DNA of 64,000 nt from the NCBI RefSeq assembly GCF_014698305.1, contig NZ_JACJST010000024.1:1-64000 (forward strand), given 5' to 3'. Origin of the DNA: Anabaena lutea FACHB-196. GTDB lineage: Bacteria; Cyanobacteriota; Cyanobacteriia; Cyanobacteriales; Nostocaceae. Positions within the stretch are counted from its first letter, which is position 1; every line of letters starts with the position of its first letter. Shown piece by piece: positions 1 to 14,075 of this stretch. Below the pieces are notes generated by a model. It was not told the origin of the DNA. It made no database searches and was given only the letters and a program-made list of their open reading frames with translations. The translations under genes were made by a program, and so were the position numbers.

Positions 1-65
1 CATCTCCCCATCTCCCCATCTCCCCATCTCCCCATCTCCCCATCCCCGCGTCCCCGCGTCCCCTG
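1..65. repeat. Octamer tandem array at left edge
   Basis: An 8-bp unit (ATCTCCCC) is repeated about five times from the window edge, followed by CCCCGCGT-type units. The same unit in reverse complement forms the array near 26604-26662. It is non-coding and lies just beyond the dhaL stop codon. Confidence 0.8.
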
Positions 66-67
66 CC

Positions 68-706
68 TCATCCCCTCGAACCTTCTACCACCTCCAATAA
101 ACTCCGCAACATCCAATAAGCAGAAGTACCACCGGGATCTTGATGTCCCAAACTGCGATCGCCTAAATAACTCGCCCTGCCTTTTTTGGCTAACATGGGT
201 ATAGTTGCCTTTAACCCTTGTTCTGCCGCAGCAACAGCCCTCTGCAAGGCTTCTACAGTCCCTAAACCCTCGCTGACAGCTTGCTCAAAAGCACTTACAG
301 CCGGAGACATCACATCTATCATAGTCTTATCTCCCAACTGCGCTTTACCACGCTCTAGTAAACCATCTAAGCCAGCCTGAAGGACTTTGAGGGTATCTTC
401 TGTTGTTAATTCCTGCTTGCCATCTGTTGCGGAACTAGCCCTTAAAAACCAAGTTCCATAGAGGGGTCCACTGGCACCACCAATACTGGAAATTAAGGTC
501 ATGCTAACAGCTTTGAAAATGCTGCTGATGTCTTTACCTGTAAAACTCCCTAACTGACTGCTGACTTTTTTAAAACCGCGATCCATATTGATACCATGAT
601 CACCATCACCTATGGCCGCATCTAATTCTGTCAAATCTTCTTTATGATGCTCAATGACAGAAGCGAAAACCTGTAACCATTCGACAATTTGCACCTGAGT
701 AATCAT
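68..706 (-). CDS. dhaL: Dihydroxyacetone kinase subunit DhaL
   Basis: This is the nucleotide-binding subunit of dihydroxyacetone kinase, a soluble cytoplasmic protein. The 212-aa length is normal for DhaL. The Mg-ADP site is visible near the N-terminus as AIGDGDHGINMDRGF, with Asp29, Asp34 and Asp36 as expected metal ligands; a glycine-rich SSIGGASGPLYG segment and a C-terminal SYLGDRSLGHQDPG segment match the family. It starts one base after the dhaK stop codon, so the two are almost certainly co-transcribed and translationally coupled. In PTS-type systems DhaL keeps its nucleotide and is rephosphorylated by DhaM. No DhaM lies between this gene and the window edge, so the phosphoryl donor cannot be settled here. 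Confidence 0.93.
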   Translation of the reverse strand: MITQVQIVEWLQVFASVIEHHKEDLTELDAAIGDGDHGINMDRGFKKVSSQLGSFTGKDISSIFKAVSMTLISSIGGASGPLYGTWFLRASSATDGKQELTTEDTLKVLQAGLDGLLERGKAQLGDKTMIDVMSPAVSAFEQAVSEGLGTVEALQRAVAAAEQGLKATIPMLAKKGRASYLGDRSLGHQDPGGTSAYWMLRSLLEVVEGSRG

Positions 707-707
707 C

Positions 708-1781
708 TCACATTCCCCAGCGTAAACTTGGCGTTTTTACTGGTGCATCCCATAACCGCAGCATCTCATCATCCAACTTTAGCAGGGTAATTGAGCAGCC
801 TTGCATTTCCAAAGATGTGATGTAGGGGCCAATTAAGTTTCGGACAATTTGTAGTCCTTGCTGCTCACAGATTTCTGCTAGTTTGCGATAGACAAGATAA
901 AGTTCAGAAATGGGAGTCCCACCCATACTGTTAACAAATGCTAGAATGCGATCGCCTTTTTGCAGGGGTTTATTTAACAGTTCCACATCTACCCATCTGT
1001 CTGTGGCTTCGTTCCACTCCCGCACTGTGCGACTGTAGGCGGTATCATCAGTGAGCGAGTTCACTAAAATCTCTGTAATCTCATCGACTGATTTCATGGC
1101 AACTCTCTCTCTACCAGGTTCTCCATGAATCCCAATCCCTAATTCTATTTCATCATCTCCCAAAGCAAAAGTCGGCGTACCTTTCATTGGCACTGTACAA
1201 GAACTGAGGGCAACTCCCACACTCCGTCCATGCAAATTTACCTTTCTACACAAGGAAGCTAATTGCTGCAAATCATAACCTTGTTTTGCGGCTGCACCAC
1301 AAATTTTTTCCGCCAGCACTGTTGTTCCTACACCTCTTCTGCCTTGGGTATACAAACTATCTTTCACAGCTACATCGTCATCAATGATAATATTTAGCGT
1401 GCGGATGCCTTCACTTCTGGCTAATTCCGTCGCCATTTCAAAATTCATCAAATCGCCACTATAATTTTTGACGATATAAAGAATACCAGCACCACCATCT
1501 ACCTGCTGCGCTGCGGCTAACATTTGGTCAGGTGTGGGTGAAGTAAAAACTTCTCCAGGACAAGCAGCATCAAGCATTCCTTCACCAACAAAGCCAGCGT
1601 GCATTGGTTCGTGACCACTTCCACCCCCAGAAATAATTGCTACCTTTCCCTGCATAGGTGCATCGGCACGATAGACAAAAGTTGGCTCATAATTTACCTT
1701 AATTAAATCACCATGAGCCACAGCCATTCCTTCTAGACTTTCCCTAACAAAGTCTTCCGGTTGATTAATCAGCTTTTTCAT
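708..1781 (-). CDS. dhaK: Dihydroxyacetone kinase subunit DhaK
   Basis: This is the substrate-binding subunit, which holds dihydroxyacetone covalently for phosphorylation to DHAP. The family signature [16 protein letters not shown] lies at residues 51-66, and the substrate-binding His is probably His219 in [11 protein letters not shown]. The 357-aa length is typical for a stand-alone DhaK, unlike the fused ATP-dependent enzymes of about 550 aa or more. It is first in a two-gene minus-strand operon with dhaL. It ends in LRWGM followed by a stop that abuts the dhaL start. Confidence 0.95.
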
Positions 1782-1936
1782 AATTCATATTCAAAGGGGC
1801 TAAAAATCAGAATAACCGTTCATAGCACCACTATTCAGTATTTTTGCTGATGATTACCCTTGAGATTAGTAAACTATAGGAATCCTAAATGATTTCTGAT
1901 AGCTTGCGTGGCGTAGCCATAAAATATCCAAGTATT

Positions 1937-1992
1937 GTAGGTAGGGCTATGCCTTACAAAACCCGCATATTGTGGGCAATGCCCACCCTACG
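1937..1992. repeat. Nested palindromic intergenic element
   Basis: An outer GTAGG...CCTAC inverted repeat encloses an inner hairpin GTGGGCAATGCCCAC. The element sits in the 243-bp gap between def and dhaK. It resembles the nested element at 14533-14624 and looks like a short interspersed repeat. The rest of the gap shows nothing recognisable. Confidence 0.6.
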
Positions 1993-2024
1993 TATATGTT
2001 CAAAAATCAAATATTAGTCCTGTT

Positions 2025-2567
2025 TCACCTGTCACCTGCTATACCAATTATCTGCTTTTGATATTCTGCTTCAGTCATCAATTCATCAGTAGATTCTACC
2101 CTATCTAAAAACACTTTTCCTTCCAGATGATCATATTCATGTTGAAAAATTCGGGCTACAAAATCAGTTAATTCTTGCTTTTGCAAATTACCATTTCTAT
2201 CTGTATATTCAATTTCAATTTTTTGATATCTAGGAACTAAACCCCTAATTCCCGGAACACTTAAACAACCTTCCCAACCTTTGACGACTTCAGTTGAGTG
2301 AGAAATGATTTGGGGATTAATCATTGCTGTTGGTTCCATTTCTGGCGCATGGGGATACCGAGCATTAGGACGGGAAGCAACAATAAATAAACGATAAGAT
2401 TCTGCTACTTGGGGAGATGCAATTCCTACGCCGTTAGCTTGGGCAACAGTGGCGATTAAATTATCGATTAGTTGTTGGATACGCTGATCTTGAATATTTT
2501 CAATCTCAACTGCTTTTTGGCGTAATATCGGATTACCTAATTGAATAATTGGCGCTAATTCAGTCAT
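2025..2567 (-). CDS. def: Peptide deformylase
   Basis: The enzyme removes the N-formyl group from nascent proteins. All three family motifs are present: GVGIASPQ at 46-53 (motif 1, usually GVGLAAPQ), EGCLSV around Cys101 (motif 2), and QHEYDH at 142-147 (motif 3). Predicted metal ligands are Cys101, His143 and His147, with Glu144 as catalytic base. The 180-aa length is normal. Cyanobacteria often carry more than one deformylase; the Ser in motif 1 is a mild deviation that does not touch the metal site. The next gene on the same strand, an HtrA protease, lies 48 bp upstream, so the two may be co-transcribed. Confidence 0.94.
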   Translation of the reverse strand: MTELAPIIQLGNPILRQKAVEIENIQDQRIQQLIDNLIATVAQANGVGIASPQVAESYRLFIVASRPNARYPHAPEMEPTAMINPQIISHSTEVVKGWEGCLSVPGIRGLVPRYQKIEIEYTDRNGNLQKQELTDFVARIFQHEYDHLEGKVFLDRVESTDELMTEAEYQKQIIGIAGDR

Positions 2568-2615
2568 GAAATCAACTCCTGTAAATTGGGATTTAATCTT
2601 GATAAATATCTGAAA

Positions 2616-3860
2616 TCAACTTTCATTCCTGATGGGTAAAGGTGCAGGTTTAACTGTAACTTGAGTTAGTTGCCCATTTCGCTCTACTTGGATTGGTAAT
2701 GGACTGCCAATTTTGCTATTTTCCACTAGCTTTTGTACTTCCTCTACTTTATTAACAGGTTGGTTATTAATGCTTTTGATGACATCACCAAAGCGGAGTC
2801 CACCAATTGCTGCTGGTGAGTTAGGAACAATTTTCAATAATAAAACTCCTTGATCTGCGACTAAATTCACGCGATCGCCAAATGTACTAATAACTTTTTC
2901 CTTAACTTCAGGTGTCAGCGTCACCATTTGAATACCCAAATATGGATGATCCGCCCTACCTTTAGTAATTAATTCCTGAGATATTTTCTGCACTGTATTA
3001 ATAGGAATTGCAAATCCTAAACCTTGAGCGCCTTGGATAATTGCTGTATTCATTCCTATCACTTCACCACGAGCATTTAGTAGTGGTCCACCAGAATTGC
3101 CGGGGTTAATTGCTGCATCTGTTTGTAAATAGTCTACACGTTTATCAGTAGCGCCAATCTCACTACCAGAGCGACCCATAGCACTGATAATTCCAGAGGT
3201 GACAGTGTTATTTAAACCCAAAGGATTACCAATGGCAATCACCGGTTCTCCGGGTTGTAAAATATCGGAGTTACCGAGAGCTAAGGTGGGTAGGTTATTA
3301 GCGTCAATTTGAATCATCGCTACATCCGTTACTGGATCTTCACCCAAGACTTTACCGTTAAAAGTGCGTCCATCTTTGAGTGTAACTGTTACTCTATCAG
3401 CGCCGTCTACTACGTGGGAATTAGTCAAAATTTGCCCAGAGGAATTAATTATAAATCCAGATCCGCTACCTCTTTCAACTCTTTGTCTTGGTTGTGGGAC
3501 TCTATCACTGAAAAACCGCTGGAAAAATGGATCGCCAAATTCTTCCGCTGGTTGAGATGTGATTGTTCGGGTAGAATCAATGCGAACCACAGCACCACCG
3601 ACATTTTGTACTACTTTAACTATAAAGTTAGGATCTCCAGAGGAGGAAATCATGGCAGGAGGAGCCACTACTGGGATATTCTGACCTTGAGGAATATTTT
3701 GTTCGGCTTCTAAAGTCTTGCTATTCATACGGGAACAGCCACCAACAAGCACAACTGTTAAACCAGTTAACATCCACCCTCTTGCTTTGGTTCCCAATGT
3801 GTGGAACAAAAACTTAGTATCCATATTTCTGGGTGTTAAGTGATGATTATTCGTCTTCAT
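2616..3860 (-). CDS. HtrA/Deg-family serine protease with PDZ domain
   Basis: This is an envelope quality-control protease. The N-terminus has a hydrophobic stretch ending in LVGGC (Cys42), which looks like a lipobox and suggests a lipoprotein or membrane anchor. The trypsin-like domain carries the triad His149 (TNSHVV), Asp179 (VTDVAM) and Ser256 (NPGNSGGPL). A PDZ domain spans about 305-400 and ends with PVNKVEEVQ and TVKPAPL. The 414-aa length fits the cyanobacterial HhoA/HhoB/HtrA group, which sequence reading cannot separate. The first ATG is kept because GGAG lies upstream; an internal Met13 start would leave the lipobox intact. Confidence 0.92.
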   Translation of the reverse strand: MKTNNHHLTPRNMDTKFLFHTLGTKARGWMLTGLTVVLVGGCSRMNSKTLEAEQNIPQGQNIPVVAPPAMISSSGDPNFIVKVVQNVGGAVVRIDSTRTITSQPAEEFGDPFFQRFFSDRVPQPRQRVERGSGSGFIINSSGQILTNSHVVDGADRVTVTLKDGRTFNGKVLGEDPVTDVAMIQIDANNLPTLALGNSDILQPGEPVIAIGNPLGLNNTVTSGIISAMGRSGSEIGATDKRVDYLQTDAAINPGNSGGPLLNARGEVIGMNTAIIQGAQGLGFAIPINTVQKISQELITKGRADHPYLGIQMVTLTPEVKEKVISTFGDRVNLVADQGVLLLKIVPNSPAAIGGLRFGDVIKSINNQPVNKVEEVQKLVENSKIGSPLPIQVERNGQLTQVTVKPAPLPIRNES

Positions 3861-4312
3861 GTGTACTTTATTCTCCGTGTTAGACCCTGAGTGGTAGGAT
3901 ATTGGCTACTTGGTGTAGACCAGATTAATTACAGTTTAAAGTTAAATGATTGCTTGCTCTTTCTTCTATTGTGGCAATTAGCAGCTATCTCGTCCCACCT
4001 GTGAAACTTGGATTAAAATAATTCGTAATTCGTAATACTAAAAGCCTTGTTAAATAAAGGTTTCAGATTTTGCTCTGCTGAGTGTGATGAATTTCTGATT
4101 AAGTCTAGTCTCACGCAAAGGCACAAAGGAATTTTTTAGCATCTTTACGTTTTTTACAGATTTTTGCCAGTTCAGTTAAGAAAATGGTAGGTTGGTTGAG
4201 TTAAGCAACAGCACAACCGAAAAGCTCTGATAATGTGCATTTTTGGGCTTAAATGGACTGTATTACCCCATATTTGAGGAAAACTGATGACGATAAGCCA
4301 GGAGAAAAGAGT
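3861..4312. other. 452-bp intergenic region
   Basis: This gap separates the divergent HtrA protease and the nucleotide-system block and must hold both promoters. It includes a short TAATTCG-type repeat near 4019-4037. No RNA gene or clear operator is visible. An in-frame ATG at 4253 could extend the next gene, but the start at 4313 has the better ribosome binding site. Confidence 0.5.
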
Positions 4313-5497
4313 ATGAAAGTAAGACAAGAAATTTTTGATACTTATTGGCGATTTTCTGCTATGCGCCAAGAAGTATTTTTCAACAAACTTAAAAATGCAC
4401 CACCACCCTGGACAAGTGATCCTATTCTTAATACTTATAAGTTTTGTAATGCTTATCGAGTAAGTGATCGGGTTTCTCAATATCTGATCAAAAATGTAAT
4501 TTACGATGATAATAGAAGCAAAAATGAAGAAGAAGTGTTATTTAGGATTTTGCTATTTAAAATTTTCAATAAAATAGAAACATGGGAATATTTAGAAAGC
4601 AAAATAGGAGATTATATTACTCTGTCTAATTTTGATTTAGACATATACTCTAACATATTACAAGAAGCTATGAATCTTGGATATGTGATTTATACAAGTG
4701 CATATATGTCTTGTGCTAGTAAAGAGTTTGGTTATGATAAAAAACACCAAAATCATTTGGCATTAATTGATAAAATGGTTGTCAAAGATAAGGTAATTAA
4801 TCCCATAGTCAAAGCTAAAAGTTTTGAAGAGATTTTTCATATTATTGAATCATATCCATTGTTAGGTAAGTTTATGGCTTACCAATTAGCAACAGATATT
4901 AACTATAGTGAAGTTATCAACTTTGATGAAAACAGTTTTACTATAGCAGGGCCAGGAGCAGAACGTGGTATTAACAAGTGTTTTCTTGATACCGAAGGAA
5001 AAAGTTATGCTGATGTCATTCATTGGATGACAGAAAATCAAGAAAGTGAATTTCAGCGTTTAGGTTTAAATTTTCAATCACTCTGGGGTCGTCCGTTACA
5101 AGCTATAGACTGTCAAAATCTTTTTTGTGAAACTGATAAATACTGTCGAGCCGCATTTCCTGATTTAAAAAGTAATCGCAAAAAGATAAAAGCTAAATTT
5201 ACTCCAACGCCTCAACCAATTGATTATTTTTATCCGCCTAAATGGTGTATTAATGATAAAGTTCAAGAAACTTTAGCACAGAGATTACCAACATTAGAAA
5301 TTCCTACTTTGCAACATAATTGTCAGCAATTATCTTTAGAGTTAGATTCTTTGCTGGAAACTACATCTGATCAATCTGATAAATTATCTAAATCTCATAA
5401 ACAATACAAGCAGGAGACTCAGAAGAAAAAATCAAAATTTTTGCAAAATCCAGATACAGAAAAATCTCAACAGTTGTGCCTGTTTAATGTCTTATAG
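4313..5497 (+). CDS. 5-hmdU DNA kinase-like protein (aGPT-pyrophosphorylase-type)
   Basis: This 394-aa protein carries the motif set of the family first predicted as alpha-glutamyl/putrescinyl thymine pyrophosphorylases and later linked in phages to 5-hydroxymethyl-deoxyuridine DNA kinases. Motifs in order are NAYRVSDRVSQ (46-56), RILLFKIFNKIETW (78-91), AYQLATDINYS (189-199) and GPGAERGINKCF (213-224). A charged low-complexity C-tail follows from about 330. In phages the kinase phosphorylates the hydroxymethyl group of 5-hmdU in DNA as the first hypermodification step; here only the family membership is seen. Start 4313 is chosen because AGGAGA precedes it at good spacing. It leads the four-gene plus-strand block ending at 7805 and is AT-rich compared with its flanks. 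No phage structural genes are nearby. Confidence 0.72.
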   Translation: MKVRQEIFDTYWRFSAMRQEVFFNKLKNAPPPWTSDPILNTYKFCNAYRVSDRVSQYLIKNVIYDDNRSKNEEEVLFRILLFKIFNKIETWEYLESKIGDYITLSNFDLDIYSNILQEAMNLGYVIYTSAYMSCASKEFGYDKKHQNHLALIDKMVVKDKVINPIVKAKSFEEIFHIIESYPLLGKFMAYQLATDINYSEVINFDENSFTIAGPGAERGINKCFLDTEGKSYADVIHWMTENQESEFQRLGLNFQSLWGRPLQAIDCQNLFCETDKYCRAAFPDLKSNRKKIKAKFTPTPQPIDYFYPPKWCINDKVQETLAQRLPTLEIPTLQHNCQQLSLELDSLLETTSDQSDKLSKSHKQYKQETQKKKSKFLQNPDTEKSQQLCLFNVL

Positions 5498-5538
5498 GAT
5501 TTACAAATCAAGAGTAATTCAAAGGAAAGTATACTGGC

Positions 5539-6024
5539 ATGGAAAAATATGCCAAGATTAATGGAAATTATCGCTACTTACTGGGGCGTAAATGGGATGC
5601 AAATTTGCAGCAAGTTACTTTTGTCATGCTTAACCCAAGTACGGCCGATCATGAACAAGATGATAGGACACTCACGAGATGTATTAAGTTTGCTCAATGT
5701 TGGGGTTATGGTTCTCTTGAAGTGGTTAATCTATTCGCTTATCGTGCTACAAAACGCCCTCATCTTCTCCTAGCAGACGATCCGGTAGGACCAAAAAATA
5801 ACTACTATATTCAATTAGCAACAAACCGCGCTGAGGCAATTATTGTGGCATGGGGAGGGAGTAAGTATCCCAGAATTATGAACCGGAATGAAGAAGTGCT
5901 AAGTCTAATTTGTGGCAAAAATATCGATTCTCTAGGTCTTTTAACAAAAGATGGACATCCACGCCATCCGCTATATCTTCCACTGAGTACAGAAAGAAAG
6001 CCTTTTCTTAGTGCTTTACCATAG
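5539..6024 (+). CDS. DUF1643-family protein
   Basis: This 161-aa protein matches the DUF1643 pattern: YRYLLGRKW (11-19), LNPSTADHEQDD (31-42), a GYGSLEVVNLFAYRAT core (57-71), VAWG (103-106) and a C-terminal HPRHPLYLP segment. No biochemical role is established that I can cite. The family is frequent in mobile or phage-linked contexts and beside nucleotide-related genes. It begins 41 bp after the kinase-like gene on the same strand, preceded by AAGGAAAG, so it probably belongs to the same transcript. Confidence 0.8.
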   Translation: MEKYAKINGNYRYLLGRKWDANLQQVTFVMLNPSTADHEQDDRTLTRCIKFAQCWGYGSLEVVNLFAYRATKRPHLLLADDPVGPKNNYYIQLATNRAEAIIVAWGGSKYPRIMNRNEEVLSLICGKNIDSLGLLTKDGHPRHPLYLPLSTERKPFLSALP

Positions 6025-6138
6025 TAATAGTTAAAACAGAAACTCTAACAATGAGACTGTTTATTTCTCATCATATTTGTATGTTATTTCGGTGAGAATA
6101 CTAGTAATCAACAAGTTTAAAATTTAAGGAATTGTATT

Positions 6139-7035
6139 ATGAATTTTGCTGAATATCAAATACAAGCATTAAATACAGATCAGATTCCTGCTGTTGAAGG
6201 TACTGAATTAATCATACCGCTACTAGGTTTAGTTGGTGAAGTTGGTTCACTGATGACAGAATATAAAAAACATTTACGCGATGGTGAAGCACACAAATTA
6301 TTTAAAGAAGGAATTGCAGAAGAATTGGGAGATATGCTTTGGTATATTTCCAATATAGCCAGTAAATTTAACCTTAATTTGGAAGAAATCGCAGAAAATA
6401 ATCTGACAAAGTGTAATGATCGGTGGGGATGGAGAGATTCAACAGAAACAGATAATAAAAATACAAGTTACAGCTTTGATAATGATTTTCCCGAACATGA
6501 AAGTTTACCAAGACAATTTGAAGTAGAAATTACAGAGGTAAGCAAAGATAACTCAATCAAAATGAAGGCATTTGTCAACAAAGAACAGATAGGAAATGAC
6601 CTAACTGATAATTCCTATAAAAGTGATGGCTACCGCTTTCATGATATTTTTCATTTTTCCTACGCCGCAGTTTTAGGTTGGTCTGTAGTTACTCGTAGTA
6701 TTCTTAAACGTAAGCGCAAAAGTAATCCCCTTATTGACGAAGTTGAAGATGGAGGTCGTGCAGTAGCTATTGAAGAAGGTATATCAGCACTTGTATTTAG
6801 CTATGCTAAAGATCACGGTTTCTTAAAAGGCGTTTCAACATTAGATTACCAACTATTGAAGACTATCAAAAATATGACATCTCATTTAGAAGTTTCTTGT
6901 TGTTCGCTAGGAGATTGGGAGAAGGCTATTTTGATGGGTTATGATGTCTGGCGACAAGTAGAAAAAAATCGGGGAGGAACGGTAGTTGTTGACCTTGATG
7001 CAGGCTTTATAACTTATCAAATAGGTGTAAGTTAA
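6139..7035 (+). CDS. MazG-like nucleotide pyrophosphohydrolase, two-domain
   Basis: The N-terminal 100 residues match the all-alpha MazG/NTP-PPase superfamily: GLVGEVGSLMTEYKK (30-44) followed by EELGDMLWYI (61-70), giving the acidic E..E/EExxD Mg-binding set. Such enzymes hydrolyse (d)NTPs to NMP and pyrophosphate. The second half (about 165-298) is a separate helical domain with HDIFHFSYAAVLGWS (168-182) and a charged RAVAIEEGISALVF stretch (207-220) that could be a second helical NTPase-like or sensor domain. AAGGA precedes the start. It is third in the block with the hmdU-kinase-like and DCD-like genes, which fits a role in controlling a (modified) nucleotide pool. Substrate unknown. Confidence 0.82.
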   Translation: MNFAEYQIQALNTDQIPAVEGTELIIPLLGLVGEVGSLMTEYKKHLRDGEAHKLFKEGIAEELGDMLWYISNIASKFNLNLEEIAENNLTKCNDRWGWRDSTETDNKNTSYSFDNDFPEHESLPRQFEVEITEVSKDNSIKMKAFVNKEQIGNDLTDNSYKSDGYRFHDIFHFSYAAVLGWSVVTRSILKRKRKSNPLIDEVEDGGRAVAIEEGISALVFSYAKDHGFLKGVSTLDYQLLKTIKNMTSHLEVSCCSLGDWEKAILMGYDVWRQVEKNRGGTVVVDLDAGFITYQIGVS

Positions 7036-7109
7036 AGTAACAAGTCTAGTTGGCATTTTGTCTCTGTTAATATAAAACTTTCATTTAACCATATCTTGAG
7101 GAAATAAAA

Positions 7110-7805
7110 ATGAGTTTTTGGTCATCACAAACTTTGCGTTCTCGTCTTCCTAGTTTAATTGAACCATTTAATGATGATCAAATTGAGTCTGCATCATACC
7201 AATTGTGTTTAGGGGAAGAAGTTTATATTTCACCCCTTCCTGATACACCTCTGAAAGAACGAAAAAAAATTCCTCTTAGCGAGAAAGAAACTGTTCCTAT
7301 CCCTCCAGGACAGTTTGCATTTCTAATAACTTCTGAAAAAATCAAAATTCCTAACAATGCACTTGCATTTATTTCAATTAGATTTAAATTTAAATCAAAG
7401 GGCTTGATTAATGTTTCAGGTCTTCATGTAGATCCTGGTCATTGTGGCAAATTAATTTTTGCTGTTTATAATGCTGGACCTCTTCACCTTCATATAGAAA
7501 GAGGTGAAAGGGTTTTTTCTATATGGTATGCAGACTTAGATAAAGAAGATGATAATCCACGAAATAAGATCGGTTATAGTTCAATTCCGTCAGACTTAAT
7601 GAATAGTGCTGATTTAGTTTCTTCTCTTCCTGCTTTGGTAAAACGTTTGGATGATCTAGAGAAGAAAGTAGAGAATTATTCTATTAAACAGGCTTTTGTC
7701 ATTACGATTGCTGTTGGGGTTCTACTTACTTTAGCAAAGCCAATAGCGGAAATATTTATACAGCCATTACTAAATATGATTAAATCTTCTCTTACCATCT
7801 ATTAA
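7110..7805 (+). CDS. Membrane-anchored dCTP deaminase/dUTPase-fold protein
   Basis: Residues 1-145 read as the dCTP deaminase/dUTPase trimer fold: SYQLCLGEE (29-37), FKSKGLINVSG (94-104), VDPGHCGKL (107-115) and FAVYNAGPL (117-125). Aligned by eye with bacterial dCTP deaminase, the catalytic Glu of the VLEFYN motif is Ala119 here, so deaminase activity is doubtful; nucleotide binding or dUTPase-like hydrolysis remains possible. A predicted coiled coil (about 172-190) leads into one transmembrane helix (about 194-212), which is unusual for the family and suggests a membrane-tethered sensor or effector. GAGGAAAT precedes the start. It is the last gene of the block. Confidence 0.75.
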   Translation: MSFWSSQTLRSRLPSLIEPFNDDQIESASYQLCLGEEVYISPLPDTPLKERKKIPLSEKETVPIPPGQFAFLITSEKIKIPNNALAFISIRFKFKSKGLINVSGLHVDPGHCGKLIFAVYNAGPLHLHIERGERVFSIWYADLDKEDDNPRNKIGYSSIPSDLMNSADLVSSLPALVKRLDDLEKKVENYSIKQAFVITIAVGVLLTLAKPIAEIFIQPLLNMIKSSLTIY

Positions 7806-7876
7806 TTTTCAATTAGCGAAATGAATCTAAGCTATCGCTAAGATGATATAAGTCACGAAATAAACGAGGTGAAGTC

Positions 7877-8128
7877 ATGACAGTAAAAGAAGAAATAATC
7901 AAAGAAATTTCTCAAACCCCTGACTTTTTAATCCAAGAAGTATTAAATTTCTTACTGTTCATTAAAAACAGGTTTAAGCAAAGAGTTTCCGAAAATCAAA
8001 CTGGAGATTTTACCGATACCTTAGCATCCCAATCTTTTTTTAATTTCATTGATGAGGTGAGTAGCCAAATTCCTCAATCAGAATGGGAAAAGCTACCATC
8101 GGATATGTCAAAAAATTTAGACCACTAA
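7877..8128 (+). CDS. DUF2281-like small protein, possible antitoxin
   Basis: This 83-aa protein has the N-terminal pattern of small cyanobacterial DUF2281-type proteins (PDFLIQEVLNFLLFIKNRF), often annotated as antitoxin-like or found as solo genes. It is acidic and soluble. A GAGGTG ribosome binding site precedes the start. No toxin follows: the next 400 bp hold repeats. The protein stops abruptly after KNLDH just before the repeat tract, so it may have lost a few C-terminal residues. It lies 71 bp after the DCD-like gene and could be co-transcribed, but it need not be part of that system. Confidence 0.6.
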   Translation: MTVKEEIIKEISQTPDFLIQEVLNFLLFIKNRFKQRVSENQTGDFTDTLASQSFFNFIDEVSSQIPQSEWEKLPSDMSKNLDH

Positions 8129-8531
8129 GTAGCTTGGCACAATTAAATATAAAACCTCTCTCCAAACCTCTCCCCTACCTCTCCCTAACCCTCTCCTACA
8201 AGGAGAGGGAAAAGGAATAACTTTTAATACTGGAGAGGCTTTGACTCCCCCTTCCCTGGTAGGGAAGGGGGTTGGGGGGATAGGTTTATATTATATTTTT
8301 TAACGCCCACTTACTTATCTATAGGATATCGAATTGCATTAGCACTTAAAGATATTTCGGCTTTAAAGAATCGCATTCTTTTGGATAAGTTGCAAAAAGG
8401 TGTTTAATTTAAAGTAGTTTCCGCAAAGATGCAAAAAATACCCAGATTCTAGACTTCTCAGAGAAGCCGGGAGTCTATCTGTTGTTACAAAATTTGTTAC
8501 CATTATCCTTCACCAGCTGTATCTCAGATTT
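8129..8531. repeat. C/T-rich hairpin repeats upstream of dnaN
   Basis: Two strong hairpins lie here: CCCTCTCCT-ACA-AGGAGAGGG at 8189-8209, and an 11-bp stem CCCCCTTCCCT with loop GGT at 8247-8271. They belong to the interspersed family also seen at 38102-38210, 43252-43391 and 47523-47605. A third stem-loop (AGACT...AGTCT with flanking CAGAT/ATCTG, 8443-8480) lies just before dnaN and may be in its leader. An open frame at about 8325-8407 without a start codon is probably decay debris. Confidence 0.7.
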
Positions 8532-9680
8532 ATGAAATTAGTTTGCGCTCAAAGCGATCTCAGTACCAACCTCTCACTCGTCAGTCGTGCAGTACCATCA
8601 AGACCAACTCATCCCGTACTTGCTAACGTACTGCTGCAAGCGGACGCTCAAACTAACCAAGTCAGCTTAACAGCCTTTGATCTCAGCTTGGGTATCCGCA
8701 CCAGTTTTAGTGCTGAAGTCTTAGAAGGGGGAGCGATCGCACTTCCTGCTAAACTACTTGTAGACATCACCTCTCGTCTACCAGAAGGCGAAATCACCTT
8801 AGACGATGAATCAGGGGACAACACCGGAGAAGGTATCATTGTCACTCTCAAACCCAAAAGCGGCAAGTATCAAGTCCGCGCTATGGGAGCAGAAGAATTT
8901 CCCGAATTACCCATAATTGAAAATTCAGAAGCAATTCACCTCACCACGGCTGCTTTAATTGAAGGACTAAGAGGTTCATTATTTGCTACTAGTGCTGATG
9001 AAACCAAACAAGTTCTCACGGGTGTGCATTTAACAGTTAAACAAGACACCTTAGAATTTGCAGCGACTGACGGACACCGTCTAGCTGTGCTAGAAACAAC
9101 TAATGAGCGTCCGCTGGAGGGTAGCAGTCAACTTGAGGTAACAGTACCAGCGAGAGCATTACGGGAACTACAACGGATGTTAGCTCATAGTTCCTCAGAG
9201 GAAACTGTAGCCTTATATTTTGATCAAGGTCAAATAGTGTTTGCTTGGCAAAATCAACGCCTAACCAGCCGAACTTTAGAAGGACAATATCCCGCCTATC
9301 GGCAATTAATTCCTCGCCAATTTGAGCGACAAGTTACTATTGAAAGGCGGCAATTTATTAGCACTTTAGAGCGAATTGCTGTGTTAGCAGATCAGAAAAA
9401 TAATATTGTCAAAGTTAGCATTGATAACGCCAATCAAGAAATTACCTTATCTTGTGAAGCCCAAGATGTGGGTAGTGGTACAGAATCTATGCCGGCACAA
9501 ATATCTGGAGAAGATATAGACATTGCTTTTAATGTCAAATATTTAATGGAAGGTTTGAAAGAGTTACCATCTTCAGAAATCCAAATGCACTTAAATCAAA
9601 GTCTCACTCCAGTAATTTTTACACCTTTGGGCGGTTTAAAGATGACTTATTTAGCTATGCCTGTGCAATTGAGAAATTAG
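8532..9680 (+). CDS. dnaN: DNA polymerase III beta sliding clamp
   Basis: This is the ring-shaped processivity clamp of the replicative polymerase and the docking platform for polymerases, MutS and others. The 382-aa protein has three clamp domains in order. It begins MKLVCAQSDLS, has the domain 2 segment FATSADETKQVLTGVHL, and ends with the conserved YLAMPVQLRN. It stands alone, away from dnaA or recF, which is common in cyanobacteria. Its upstream region carries repeats and a stem-loop rather than a neighbouring gene, so it probably has its own promoter. No DnaA-box cluster marking an origin was noticed. Confidence 0.97.
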   Translation: MKLVCAQSDLSTNLSLVSRAVPSRPTHPVLANVLLQADAQTNQVSLTAFDLSLGIRTSFSAEVLEGGAIALPAKLLVDITSRLPEGEITLDDESGDNTGEGIIVTLKPKSGKYQVRAMGAEEFPELPIIENSEAIHLTTAALIEGLRGSLFATSADETKQVLTGVHLTVKQDTLEFAATDGHRLAVLETTNERPLEGSSQLEVTVPARALRELQRMLAHSSSEETVALYFDQGQIVFAWQNQRLTSRTLEGQYPAYRQLIPRQFERQVTIERRQFISTLERIAVLADQKNNIVKVSIDNANQEITLSCEAQDVGSGTESMPAQISGEDIDIAFNVKYLMEGLKELPSSEIQMHLNQSLTPVIFTPLGGLKMTYLAMPVQLRN

Positions 9681-9713
9681 GAATAATTCAATTTTGGATT
9701 AATTTTGGATTAA

Positions 9714-9820
9714 CTCGTTTCCAGTTTCCAACTGGGAATACTATCACAGAGGCTCTGCCTCTGCTATGATTAAAGGCAGAGCCTTCTAAAATTCATTCCC
9801 ATACAGAGCATGGGAACGAG
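9714..9820. repeat. Interspersed palindromic element after dnaN
   Basis: Imperfect terminal inverted repeats (CTCGTTTCC at the left, GGGAACGAG at the right) enclose inner repeats around AGGCTCTGCCT and AGGCAGAGCCT. The element is about 107 bp, lies between the convergent dnaN and the histidine kinase, and could also terminate transcription. Confidence 0.6.
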
Positions 9821-9877
9821 AATAAAGAGAATACAGTTTTTTTAAATATAAAATCCCAAATCTAAAATCTAAAATTG

Positions 9878-12649
9878 TTAGGTGATGTGGAAAATGGGAA
9901 TTTCAATCCAGAATTCTGTACCTACATTTGGTTGTGAATCACATTTAAATATACCACCGTGTTTTTCCACCACAATTTGATAACTAATTGATAACCCCAA
10001 GCCAGTACCTTTACCCACTGGCTTAGTAGTGAAAAAGGGGTCAAATATTCTTGCCTTTTGAGCGTCCGGCATTCCTGGCCCATTGTCACTAATACGAATT
10101 ACTGCACTTTGCACATTTTCATTCATTTCCCCTATGGAAGTACAAATAGTAATTTTCCCTGACAGAAGATTTTCTGATTTAAATGTTCTGTAACTTTCTA
10201 GGGCATCAATTGCATTACTTAAAACATTCATAAATACTTGATTTAGTTGTCCAGCATAACACTCTACCAAAGGTAAATTGCCGTATTGTTTGATTATTTG
10301 AATGCCCGGACTTTCGGGTTTGGCTTTTAAGCGATGCTGCAAAATCAGCAAAGTACTATCAATGCCATCATGAATATTCACCTCTTTCATTTCTGACTCA
10401 TCAAGGCGTGAAAAGTTTCGCAAAGATAAGACAATTTGCCGAATTCTGTCAACTCCAATTTGCATAGAAGATAAACTTTTTGGTAAATCTTCAATCAGAA
10501 ATTCTAAATCCAATTCTTCTGCCCGTTCCACAATCTCTGCACTGGGTTCTGGGCATTCCTGCTGATAGAGATGGAGCATACTGAGTAAATCTTCAGCATA
10601 TTCATTGATATGAACAAGGTTGCCAGAAATAAAATTAACTGGATTATTAATTTCATGGGCAACACCGGCTACAAGTTGCCCTAAAGAAGACATTTTTTCC
10701 GTTTGAATAAGTTGGGTTTGAGTTGATTGTAATTCATGCAGAGTTTGTGTTAGTTGTTCCGCTTGTTGCTGAGTTTTTACCAGTAATTCAGCTTGTTGAA
10801 TTGCTACCCCAAGTTGCGCTGCAATTTGACTCATGAAGTTAACTTCAGAGGTTTTCCATTGACGGGGTCCGGTGTGTTGATAAGTACAAAGCAAACCCCA
10901 AAGTTGTTTTCTGATAAAAATAGGAGCTAACACAAAGGCATGAATTTGAAACTGCTCTAAATTATCGACATGACAAGGAGTAAATCCCATTTGGTAGATA
11001 TCATCTACGGCAAAGGTTTCATTATTTCGGTATCTTCCTCCTTCTGTATCTTGTAAATATGTATCATTCCAAATTGTATTGATCCCAAGTTTAGATTCAT
11101 TGAACCAGTTGGGACTAGCAGCTTCAAAATCACCAACAAATTCCCCACCCCAATCAGCAGCGAATTTATAGACAGAAACGCGATCAGCTTTGATTAATTG
11201 ACAAACTTCTTTAGTAGTTATTTTAAAAATAGTATCTATATCAAGAGACTTACGGATCTTGTTAATGACTCCAAACACAGCTTGTTGCTGCTCAGAAGTC
11301 TTTTGCATTTCTAATGTTCGCTTGTGGACTTGTTTTTCTAAATTCTCATTAAAACCTTGCACCTGTTGATAAAGTTCATACTGCTGAATTGCGGAAGCAA
11401 AATGTTTACCAATTTCTCCAGCTAGTTCGATTTCTTCATCTGTCCATTTTTCAGCTTGTTCTTGTTTAGATTCGCGCCACAAGTCAAAAGATAACCGGGG
11501 GTAAAGTTGTCTGTTATCTGGGTCAAATTGACCAGCCCAAAGAGTTTCTATTTCTATTTCCTTGCGAAAAATAGTTAAATAGCCTACTAATTCTTGCCGA
11601 TAGTGGAGGGGAATCATTAAGAGGCTGCGGATTTTTGTGGGTTTAAAGGCAAGTTGCACAATTCGCAAATTGGAATTTTGGTAAATATCAGGAATTGCCC
11701 AAATGTCGTATTCACCAGATTTGTAATGTTCCTGCCAGACACTATACTGCTCTAGAAGTGGATATATATTTGGGTTGGGAATAACTGGTTGCTGTCCGCA
11801 TACATAAAGCTGGAGGCAGTTGCTACCAGGAATTAAACATTCTGTGAGAGTTTTAAAGTTGTTATGTTGAAAATCAAAGGCATTATATCTGATACATAAC
11901 CTGCCACCAACACCATGAAAGGCAGCAACTGTGGCTTCTAAAGCTGGTTGTAAGACAATTGTCGGTAATGAATGTAGAAGGGTGGCAATGCGGTTAATTA
12001 TAGCTTCTCGTTCGGATTGGGCGCGGGCTTGGGTGAGGAGATTACTTTGTGCGATCGCTACAGACAACTGCTCTACTACCATCTGCATCGCCTCTAGTTC
12101 ATATTCTGCCACATCACGAGCTTGAGAATGATGAGATACTAACAATCCCCAAAGTGCATCTTGATGGATAATCGGTGCAACTACAGAAGACTTAACCCCC
12201 ATAGCCGTTAAATATTCTACATGACATGGATCTACTGAACGATAAAGAATATCTTCAGAGATAATTTCCCCCGTTTCTAAGTTATGCTGCGGACTTTGAG
12301 CAATCTGTCTAGAATCAACATTTACTACAGAACGCACCCGCGACTTAATAAACATTTCACGGGCATGAAGGGGAATGTCATCAGCGGGGAAATTCAACCC
12401 CAATAAGGACGGTAAACGATTTTCATAAATTGATTCAGCAATAACCTGACCACTACCATTTCCATGGAATTTGTAAATCATTACTCGGTCAGTTCCCAGT
12501 AAAGACCGAACCTCCGCTGTTGTAGCTGTGATAATATCTTCTAATTCTAAAGACTGCCGAATGCGATTTGTAATCCGACGGAATAAGTTTTCTTTTTCCA
12601 TACCTGTCCTCAGGTCTAATGGAGGGATGGAGGCCATTGCTTTAATCAA
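9878..12649 (-). CDS. Triple-GAF histidine kinase, phytochrome/cyanobacteriochrome-like
   Basis: This 923-aa sensor kinase has no membrane segment. GAF1 (about 40-205) resembles knotless phytochrome GAFs, with FPADDIPLHAR and a Cys-His pair in DPCHVEYL (Cys142-His143). GAF2 (about 225-425) lacks the Cys-His. GAF3 (about 465-625) resembles red/green cyanobacteriochromes, with TYLQDTEGGRYR and TPCHVDNLEQFQ (Cys559-His560). A coiled coil follows, then HisKA with phosphoacceptor His665 (GVAHEINNP) and a HATPase domain with NVLSNAIDAL, DNGPGMP and GTGLGLS. The two Cys-His pairs are where bilin would attach, so two chromophores are plausible but unproven. No receiver domain is present; a partner may lie in the 19-27 kb cluster. 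Confidence 0.88.
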   Translation of the reverse strand: MIKAMASIPPLDLRTGMEKENLFRRITNRIRQSLELEDIITATTAEVRSLLGTDRVMIYKFHGNGSGQVIAESIYENRLPSLLGLNFPADDIPLHAREMFIKSRVRSVVNVDSRQIAQSPQHNLETGEIISEDILYRSVDPCHVEYLTAMGVKSSVVAPIIHQDALWGLLVSHHSQARDVAEYELEAMQMVVEQLSVAIAQSNLLTQARAQSEREAIINRIATLLHSLPTIVLQPALEATVAAFHGVGGRLCIRYNAFDFQHNNFKTLTECLIPGSNCLQLYVCGQQPVIPNPNIYPLLEQYSVWQEHYKSGEYDIWAIPDIYQNSNLRIVQLAFKPTKIRSLLMIPLHYRQELVGYLTIFRKEIEIETLWAGQFDPDNRQLYPRLSFDLWRESKQEQAEKWTDEEIELAGEIGKHFASAIQQYELYQQVQGFNENLEKQVHKRTLEMQKTSEQQQAVFGVINKIRKSLDIDTIFKITTKEVCQLIKADRVSVYKFAADWGGEFVGDFEAASPNWFNESKLGINTIWNDTYLQDTEGGRYRNNETFAVDDIYQMGFTPCHVDNLEQFQIHAFVLAPIFIRKQLWGLLCTYQHTGPRQWKTSEVNFMSQIAAQLGVAIQQAELLVKTQQQAEQLTQTLHELQSTQTQLIQTEKMSSLGQLVAGVAHEINNPVNFISGNLVHINEYAEDLLSMLHLYQQECPEPSAEIVERAEELDLEFLIEDLPKSLSSMQIGVDRIRQIVLSLRNFSRLDESEMKEVNIHDGIDSTLLILQHRLKAKPESPGIQIIKQYGNLPLVECYAGQLNQVFMNVLSNAIDALESYRTFKSENLLSGKITICTSIGEMNENVQSAVIRISDNGPGMPDAQKARIFDPFFTTKPVGKGTGLGLSISYQIVVEKHGGIFKCDSQPNVGTEFWIEIPIFHIT

Positions 12650-12887
12650 ATAATTTAGTATCTTACTATAGTAAGCGATTCACCTTAATCGTATTTTTAG
12701 ATTTTACCCATGTCTTTGTCTTCAGTAAGATTACGGTCAAACGATTTTGGACTTTGGACTTTGAATGGATGAGGTTAAAATCACCCTGCTAATCTTTTAA
12801 TCTTGATCTTAACAGGCAACAGAATTCTCTCACATATCATGTAGTTGGATTGCTATAAGAATTTTCAGTCACCTGTTAAGTAGTCAT

Positions 12888-14075
12888 CTAAACCTTCACA
12901 ATGTCAGCAAAGCGAATTTTTAGATAATCATCTTCCATTTTTGCTCCTGATGGTTGAAGTGCTGCTAAAGCCTGCGGTAAAACCAAATTACGGCGATGAT
13001 TACCAATAGTAATATTTAATTCATCGCCACTTTTACTGAGTTGAACTTGATTTTTGGGAATGCCCGGTAAATAAAGTTCCAAGCTGTATTGGTTATTTTC
13101 TTGCACAACTCTGATAGTTGTTTCTTTGTAATAAATCTGAGTTGGATCTTCATCTGGGTAAAGTGTTTCTTTGAGTCTTTCTAATGCTGCTAAACCGCAC
13201 ATTTCCTCCGAATAAAGAGGTACTTCCTTCACAGGTAAGGGGTGGAAGTTTTCATGAATTTCTTGGCGATATTGTTCTTGATTTTCTTTCCAACGTTGGA
13301 AGAAGGGATCTTCAACTTGTTTAGGAATAATGCGATTAGCAATAATTAAATCGGTAGCCACATTATACAAACTCAAATAAGCATGAGCGCGGAGAGATTC
13401 TTTAATCACCATCTTTTCGGGGTTGGTGACAAGACGGACTGAGGTTTGAGTATTGTCAGTCAATACTTTTTCTAAAGCTTCTATTTGTTCATAAAACTCA
13501 TAAGGAGCATCCATTACTTCTCTATCTGGTAACGAAAAACCAGCAATTGGTCTAAAAATAGGCTCAACTAAAGGTCTAAGTGCTACCGAGATGTTTTGAA
13601 AAGGTTTATAGAAGCGCCGCATATACCAGCCGCCGACTTCTGGTAAACTCAACAAACGTAGAGCCGTACCAGTCGGAGCCGAGTCAATAATTAAAACGTC
13701 AAATTCCCCTTCGTCATAGTGACGTTTCATTCTTACCAAGCCGAATATCTCATCCATTCCCGGTAAAATGGCTAATTCTTCGGCTTGTATCCCCTCTAAA
13801 CCCCGTGCTTGTAACACTTGAGTAATGTAACGCTTCACCGCACCCCAGTTACCTTCTAATTCTTGGAGCGCGTCGAGTTCTGCTCCCCACAAATTGGGGC
13901 GGACTTGTCGGGCATCATGTCCCAATTCTAGATCAAAGCTGTCGGCTAGTGAGTGAGCAGGGTCTGTACTTAAAACTAATGTGCGGTAGCCGAGTTCTGC
14001 ACAACGCAATCCCGTTGCAGCCGCGACTGAGGTTTTACCTACCCCACCCTTGCCGGTCATTAAAATTACTCGCAT
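12888..14075 (-). CDS. ArsA/GET3-type ATPase with C-terminal HSP20-like domain
   Basis: This P-loop ATPase belongs to the ArsA/Get3 family. The deviant Walker A is GKGGVGKTS (9-17), followed by the [13 protein letters not shown] switch, [15 protein letters not shown] and the adenine-loop [11 protein letters not shown]. Residues from about 315 to the end form an alpha-crystallin-like beta domain ([27 protein letters not shown]), as in plant and cyanobacterial Get3 relatives. No ars operon genes surround it, so arsenite extrusion is unlikely; roles in tail-anchored or membrane protein handling are proposed for the family. It is followed by 238 bp free of genes, then the triple-GAF kinase. Confidence 0.9.

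Follow-up and report, generated by a model that had tools for sequence, protein, structure and literature searches.

Several described systems lie close to the four-gene block treated here, which occupies positions 4313-7805 of a 64,000-nucleotide stretch of Anabaena lutea FACHB-196 DNA (the window: contig NZ_JACJST010000024.1 of assembly GCF_014698305.1, positions 1 to 64,000 of the forward strand; host genome 6.06 Mb in 62 contigs). In the phages M6, ViI and phi W-14, as outlined in PMC6449724, 5-hydroxymethyldeoxyuridine (5hmdU) residues of the DNA receive a phosphate from a 5hmdU DNA kinase and are modified afterwards. The DefensePredictor study (PMC13092281) reports a 5-hydroxymethyluracil kinase-domain system that protected E. 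coli in a phage test; it gives aGPT-Pplase, MazG, MazG-C and dUTPase as predicted defence domains, none of them validated according to its authors, and DUF1643 is not named in its main text. Brig1 and Brig3 protect cells by excision of modified phage bases, and Brig2 is reported to be active on phages with modified thymine (PMC11078745, PMC13160076).

The block resembles phage thymidine hypermodification in that its first protein, carrying the domain HMUDK_hel, has homologues in PhiW-14 and Det7; it differs in having neither a P-loop kinase nor a synthase-like gene and in encoding MazG_C. All four domain types listed among the predicted nucleotide-modifying systems of DefensePredictor occur in the block, whereas a clamp motif, a rate contrast and a site swap (see below) are not described in the parts of PMC13092281 that were compared. 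A sequence-only reading of the window had stated that it knew of no described system holding this set; domains of the same kinds are in fact already listed there, and what stands of the statement is that the set was not seen together in those parts. With the Brig glycosylases the block would share an attack on modified bases in phage DNA, as proposed here, but unlike them it is multi-gene, and DUF1643 is not placed in the uracil-DNA glycosylase (UDG) superfamily. The base-hypermodification defence of PMC12458937 was considered as the same system and rejected, as the system described there is of the deazaguanine/helicase kind. No paper containing the Pfam identifiers of the block was found among those searched; Iyer 2013 and Burroughs 2015 could hold a prior description.

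The reading favoured here, tentatively and at a little under an even chance, is that the block is a module of the nucleotide/DNA-base type, horizontally variable and directed against phages, and, jointly with this, the short version without a kinase, as is typical of Nostocales, of a broader HMUDK_hel + MazG-MazG_C operon family. What is new here lies above all in the clamp motif, the rate of DUF1643, the exchange of occupants at the site and the alternation of MazG_C with a thymidylate synthase. The features are as follows.

4313-5497, + strand: HMUDK_hel gene, 394 amino acids (aa); Pfam PF18723, E 4e-110
5471-5485, + strand: QLCLF putative sliding-clamp-binding motif, three residues before the HMUDK_hel end
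5539-6024, + strand: DUF1643 gene, 161 aa; Pfam PF07799, E 6e-44; fastest-diverging gene of the block
6139-7035, + strand: MazG + MazG_C gene, 298 aa; PF03819, E 2e-4, and PF18722, E 2.5e-82
7110-7805, + strand: dCTP-deaminase-like (DCD) gene with C-terminal membrane segment, 231 aa; PF22769, E 1.2e-16
4102-7839, no strand: variable segment with only the four genes and without an integrase (blastn and junction sequences)

The four consecutive plus-strand genes of the sequence-only reading were confirmed, each start being preceded, as judged by eye, by a Shine-Dalgarno-like stretch, and its assignments of DUF1643 and of a two-domain MazG agree with Pfam (PF07799; PF03819 + PF18722). Its label 'hmdU-kinase-like' for gene 1 is valid for the helical domain only, because neither a kinase family (Pfam) nor a P-loop motif (motif check) was found; the protein corresponds to the helical domain found in the phage 5-hmdU DNA kinase/aGPT-Pplase clade 1 family (PF18723). 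None of the four proteins was named above cut-off by NCBIfam. The intergenic gaps are 41, 114 and 74 bases. Since promoter and terminator scans of the block gave sites no more numerous than in shuffled sequence, it is the spacing that suggests transcription of the four genes as an operon. The block is AT-rich as had been noted, with a GC content of 31-36% over 4001-8000 against 37-47% in the preceding four kb and 38-42% in the following five kb; yet the window at 39-43 kb is equally AT-rich.

The view that the four genes behave as one unit is supported by linkage, natural fusions and joint presence and absence, in agreement with the earlier idea of a system. HMUDK_hel was found in 11/120 relatives and, patchily, in 17/386 cyanobacterial genomes. 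MazG_C is present in 12/386 cyanobacterial genomes, all 11 full-length copies (11/11) lying within 2.5 kb of HMUDK_hel and 10/11 having DUF1643 within 1 kb, in two cases on the opposite strand. DUF1643 itself occurs in 115/386 of these genomes, mostly without HMUDK_hel; within the window's own family it lies within 1 kb of HMUDK_hel in 9/9 DUF1643-bearing genomes. Six genomes carry HMUDK_hel without a full MazG_C (G037, G038, G244, G249, G348 and G360); the G038 contig breaks off close to where the MazG gene begins. A scan of contigs from 84,980 species gave 410 HMUDK_hel-relative stretches, of which the best 80 were analysed and split into 26 closest loci (L038-L063), 26 long-form loci and 28 others. 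Among the 26 closest loci, counting broken or cut copies, DUF1643 is present at 24, MazG_C at 21 and DCD at 9 (one broken). Natural fusions join HMUDK_hel to DUF1643 in one frame of 571 residues and HMUDK_hel to MazG-MazG_C in one frame of 679 residues.

Presence and absence at the site was assessed by blastn of window 1-14000 against four same-genus genomes (G001-G004; 10 kb was taken from G004). The block is present in G003 and absent from G001 and G002, which keep the flanking genes on both sides; in these two the alignment ends near window 4101 and restarts at 7857 and 7840. G004 is uninformative on the site because it has only the dnaN side in common with the window; HMUDK_hel was not found in it. 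In G001 the site is occupied by a protein of 396 aa, which has an HHH_3 motif at its C-terminus and no PADLOC match (L124 6614-7804), and G002 seems, from its sequence, to keep only the last bases of the gene for this protein. The site thus changes its occupant: the HHH_3 gene in G001, its remnant in G002 and the block in the window. Direct repeats of at least 10 bases were not found at the ends of the insert. Around the other carriers, where regions of at most 20 kb were compared, the flanking genes of the window were found only in G003. A DUF2281-like gene (7877-8128) was considered as a fifth member and rejected as native, because it is present in G001 and G002, which are without the block. 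Damaged copies of MazG_C, DUF1643 or DCD, whether broken, truncated or split, were seen in relatives (G018, G051, G066, L043, L057 and L018); they point to turnover or, for some of them, to assembly errors.

The HMUDK_hel protein of the window ends in QLCLF followed by three residues. The pattern QL.LF lies within the last 45 aa of 21/27 close HMUDK_hel homologues, against 0.03 expected from shuffled tails, and reads QLCLF in 20 carriers and QLHLF in one. The six close copies without it comprise two near variants (QLCLPF and QLCL) and four without any such end; the motif was found in 0/54 distant HMUDK_hel homologues and in 0/190 adjacent non-core open reading frames. The motif itself is kept while the preceding 60 residues show 46% identity in the median pair. 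A C-terminal QLxLF is described as a sliding-clamp motif in PMC4549789 and PMC12309361, and the QLCLF tail is accordingly a putative sliding-clamp-binding motif, with binding to DnaN predicted from the sequence. At least three DnaN-like genes are present in each of G001-G004, one of them with 96-100% identity to that of the window and the rest with 38-45%, so that it may be asked to which clamp the tail would bind.

The structure model of the HMUDK_hel protein has a predicted local distance difference test (pLDDT) score of 86.6; in the tail pLDDT falls below 50 in parts, and this low-confidence region is probably disordered. The model matches a viral model of the 5-hmdU DNA kinase of Bacillus phage SP10 (E 5e-13), the HMUDK_hel proteins of a Nodularia phage and of PhiW-14, and aGPT-Pplase clade 1 (Pplase1) models; it weakly resembles amino acid:DNA transferases (E about 0.01-0.03). 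Ranks 1-8 in the PDB are DNA glycosylases of the AlkA/OGG/MutY kind at non-significant E values of 0.22-0.79, and profile comparison with HhH-GPD glycosylases gave 1%, although the hairpin was aligned. A sequence search of solved structures with gene 1 and DUF1643 gave no meaningful match.

Amino-acid changes in DUF1643 accrue about four times faster than in its partners. Over 19 three-gene loci (171 pairs, which are non-independent) the median ratio of nonsynonymous to synonymous divergence (dN/dS) is 0.47 for DUF1643, 0.13 for HMUDK_hel and 0.14 for MazG_C, and DUF1643 identity is below that of both partners in 167/171 pairs. In 36 four-gene pairs the median dN/dS is 0.54 for DUF1643 versus 0.12 for HMUDK_hel and MazG_C; median dN is 0.063 (HMUDK_hel), 0.065 (MazG_C) and 0.271 (DUF1643), at similar dS (0.48-0.49). 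The LNPS and HPxHP motifs of DUF1643 stand in an order that we take to be UDG-like, as we take the motifs themselves to be. A UDG relationship suggested by these motifs was not confirmed: in a structure search the DUF1643 model finds UdgX only at rank 13 (E 0.055), and comparison with UDG profiles gave 1-2%. PMC13231603 describes DUF1643 carried by an insertion sequence.

In the MazG part, aligned over 27 homologues, the acidic positions E34, E62 and D65 are invariant and position 37 is S, E or Q; the metal-binding motif EExxE and ExxD is our assumed reference for these positions. A DCD match and a hydrophobic stretch (residues 195-213, the single clear one among the four proteins) bear out the membrane-tethered deaminase/dUTPase fold seen by the sequence-only reading, but the deaminase catalytic positions are lost. 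The protein is thus like the dCTP deaminase/dUTPase family in its sequence-profile match across the DCD domain and unlike it in these positions and in the membrane segment. It was aligned to solved deaminases and to the host's own Dcd, which is encoded separately elsewhere in the genome; in two alignments one position apart, the Ser, Arg and Glu that we take to be catalytic in dCTP deaminase are replaced by Phe92 or Lys93, Ser96 or Lys97, and Ala118. The Asp of the DPG motif is retained. The solved chains 9ln0 and 8y1w, named dCTP deaminase, are also without the Glu and keep Ser and Arg. DCD has a dN/dS of 0.45 and, in the same 36 pairs, a dN of 0.114 at dS 0.225; it was rejected as a fast-evolving gene like DUF1643, the high ratio being mostly due to low dS. 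The dS of the DCD copies (e.g. L039 8724-9416) is about half that of the operon partners (0.225 versus 0.48-0.49), as if they had spread more recently or were constrained at the DNA level.

The long form of the operon is represented by the 26 loci at which a peptidase or a synthase-like gene is present. With gene families assigned from single members per cluster, these carry an ImmA/IrrE-type peptidase (25), a thymidylate-synthase-like protein (24), MazG_C (19), an XRE regulator (18), AcpS (17), a carrier-protein-like gene (10), a second thymidylate synthase (8), DCD (8) and DUF1643 (4). The synthase-like protein has no Pfam match and is labelled thymidylate synthase in two plasmid records; at some loci a thymidylate-kinase-like domain is fused to or adjoins HMUDK_hel. 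MazG_C alternates with the second thymidylate synthase: 18 loci have MazG_C only, seven the second synthase only (L090, L093, L097, L105, L111, L113 and L114), one has both and none has neither, for which the Fisher p of 1.2e-5 is optimistic because the loci are related. Among the 26 close loci the second synthase occurs at two (L061 and L063), both without MazG_C, and the regulator, peptidase and synthase-like clusters occur at none (0/26). The long form is found on conjugative plasmids of Allocoleopsis and Sinorhizobium, and HMUDK_hel matches occur in 22/72,556 plasmid records, seven of them typed conjugative. At the remaining 28 loci, most of them from Bacilli and Clostridia according to their titles, the partners are absent except for single-locus cases (MazG_C, an XRE-cluster gene and an AcpS-cluster gene, one each). 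In a search of eight genomes, one synthase-like protein of the long operon was matched in two long-form genomes only, with no match in the window genome or in five other short-form genomes.

Acyl-carrier-protein-like and holo-ACP synthase genes, unusual partners of nucleotide enzymes, were observed in the long operon at L089 7911-8333, L181 4517-4804 and L182 8955-9329. A further long operon encodes a 733-aa protein that combines a calcineurin-like phosphoesterase with a weak thymidylate-synthase match (L111 7499-9697).

Relatives of HMUDK_hel are present in 485/50,697 phage records, including Ackermannviridae (Det7), PhiW-14 and Nodularia phages. In Det7 an annotated MazG-like gene lies directly upstream of the HMUDK_hel gene; no MazG_C match was obtained in this MazG-like protein, gp35. 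By tblastn, nine phage records match MazG-MazG_C, over the MazG part only, and one PHROG profile spans both the MazG and the MazG_C parts.

In the favoured antiphage reading, the HMUDK_hel protein would ride the replication clamp and act on bases derived from thymine in freshly synthesised (phage) DNA, while MazG-MazG_C would handle the matching nucleotide pool. The fast-evolving DUF1643 may be the phage-facing or specificity part, and the optional, membrane-anchored DCD pseudo-enzyme might bind a nucleotide and relay a signal. Action on thymine-derived bases or nucleotides is suggested by the occurrence of HMUDK_hel in thymine-modifying phages, by MazG and by the dead membrane DCD; conflict with phages is suggested by the gain or loss of the block as a whole, its patchy distribution, the carriage on plasmids and the regulator and peptidase seen in the long form, and the rate of DUF1643. 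A more specific version appears doubtful: a replication-coupled immune module with a clamp-borne, kinase-less HMUDK_hel protein, an interchangeable DUF1643 specificity subunit, an optional dead-deaminase sensor, and MazG_C standing in for the thymidylate synthase of sister systems.

A number of observations weigh against an antiphage function. All four proteins gave zero matches in PADLOC. The defence-island enrichment suggested by the sequence-only reading did not appear as a clear excess near the close loci: at 1e-20, PADLOC gave 29 families in 100 neighbour proteins (hand-picked to drop near-duplicates, from 150 of 163) versus 33 in 100 control proteins (the first 100 of 120 around dnaN, UDG and HhH genes, with duplicates kept). 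The matches listed include PtuA, PtuB, Orf5, PD-T4-6, HEC-06, dCTPase, SspE and AriA for the neighbours, and PD-T4-6, restriction-methyltransferase, TPR and mad6 for the control. Foldseek against solved structures gave no significant match for the HMUDK_hel or DUF1643 model. By sequence, the clamp motif is found only in the close clade, where 6/27 copies are without it. The fast evolution of DUF1643 may reflect relaxed constraint rather than an arms race. Finally, DCD is a non-essential part because it is absent from 17/26 close loci.

The two readings offered from the sequence alone were a defence module and a host DNA-modification pathway, and the comparison favours the former as a prediction. 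If the block, together with other host enzymes, introduced modified thymine into the DNA of the host to mark it or to guard it against nucleases, the presence of HMUDK_hel relatives in phage groups with thymine hypermodification would be accounted for, as would the thymidylate-synthase-like, thymidylate-kinase-like and carrier-protein genes of the long operon. The antiphage reading is preferred because gene 1 is without a kinase domain and the synthase-like partner is unmatched in the genome; that partner was not found in any of the six short-form genomes, other hydroxymethylating enzymes not having been searched for, and host modification is improbable. Somewhat better placed, and still unlikely, is the production on infection of an altered thymine nucleotide or base that is made or transferred into phage DNA rather than removed from it. 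In the long operons the enzymes stand beside an XRE regulator and a peptidase of the ImmA/IrrE type, a layout suggesting induction; this fits such a poison, as do the amino acid:DNA transferases among the structure neighbours (E about 0.01-0.03). The close loci, however, have none of the regulator, peptidase and synthase-like clusters, and only 2/26 have the second thymidylate synthase; substrates for the short form would thus have to come from the host.

The two remaining explanations are less probable than either. Decaying or selfish cargo at a variable site, without present function, would explain the broken or split copies in relatives, some of which are perhaps assembly errors, but the median dN/dS of 0.13 for HMUDK_hel and 0.14 for MazG_C, a mark of purifying selection, and conservation of a terminal motif after a divergent linker make this very improbable. 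Least probable of all is a housecleaning role, by which a photosynthetic cell would rid itself of oxidised thymine in the form of 5-hydroxymethyluracil and the corresponding nucleotide. MazG enzymes in general act as sanitizers of nucleotides and the HMUDK_hel model weakly resembles HhH glycosylases, yet HMUDK_hel is present in only 17/386 cyanobacterial genomes, and the broken copies, the long-form relatives on plasmids and the fast DUF1643 do not fit such a role.

If the antiphage reading is true, bacteria have recast relatives of phage DNA-disguising enzymes as an immune module, one cyanobacterial lineage has coupled such a module to the replication clamp, and a function is gained for MazG_C and for DUF1643 (115/386 cyanobacterial genomes). 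Handles for testing would be a single peptide motif, a single fast-evolving subunit and genomes of the same genus in which just the block is missing. In the small-genome cyanobacteria G165, G396 and G354, two to four DUF1643 genes were also observed side by side in tandem.

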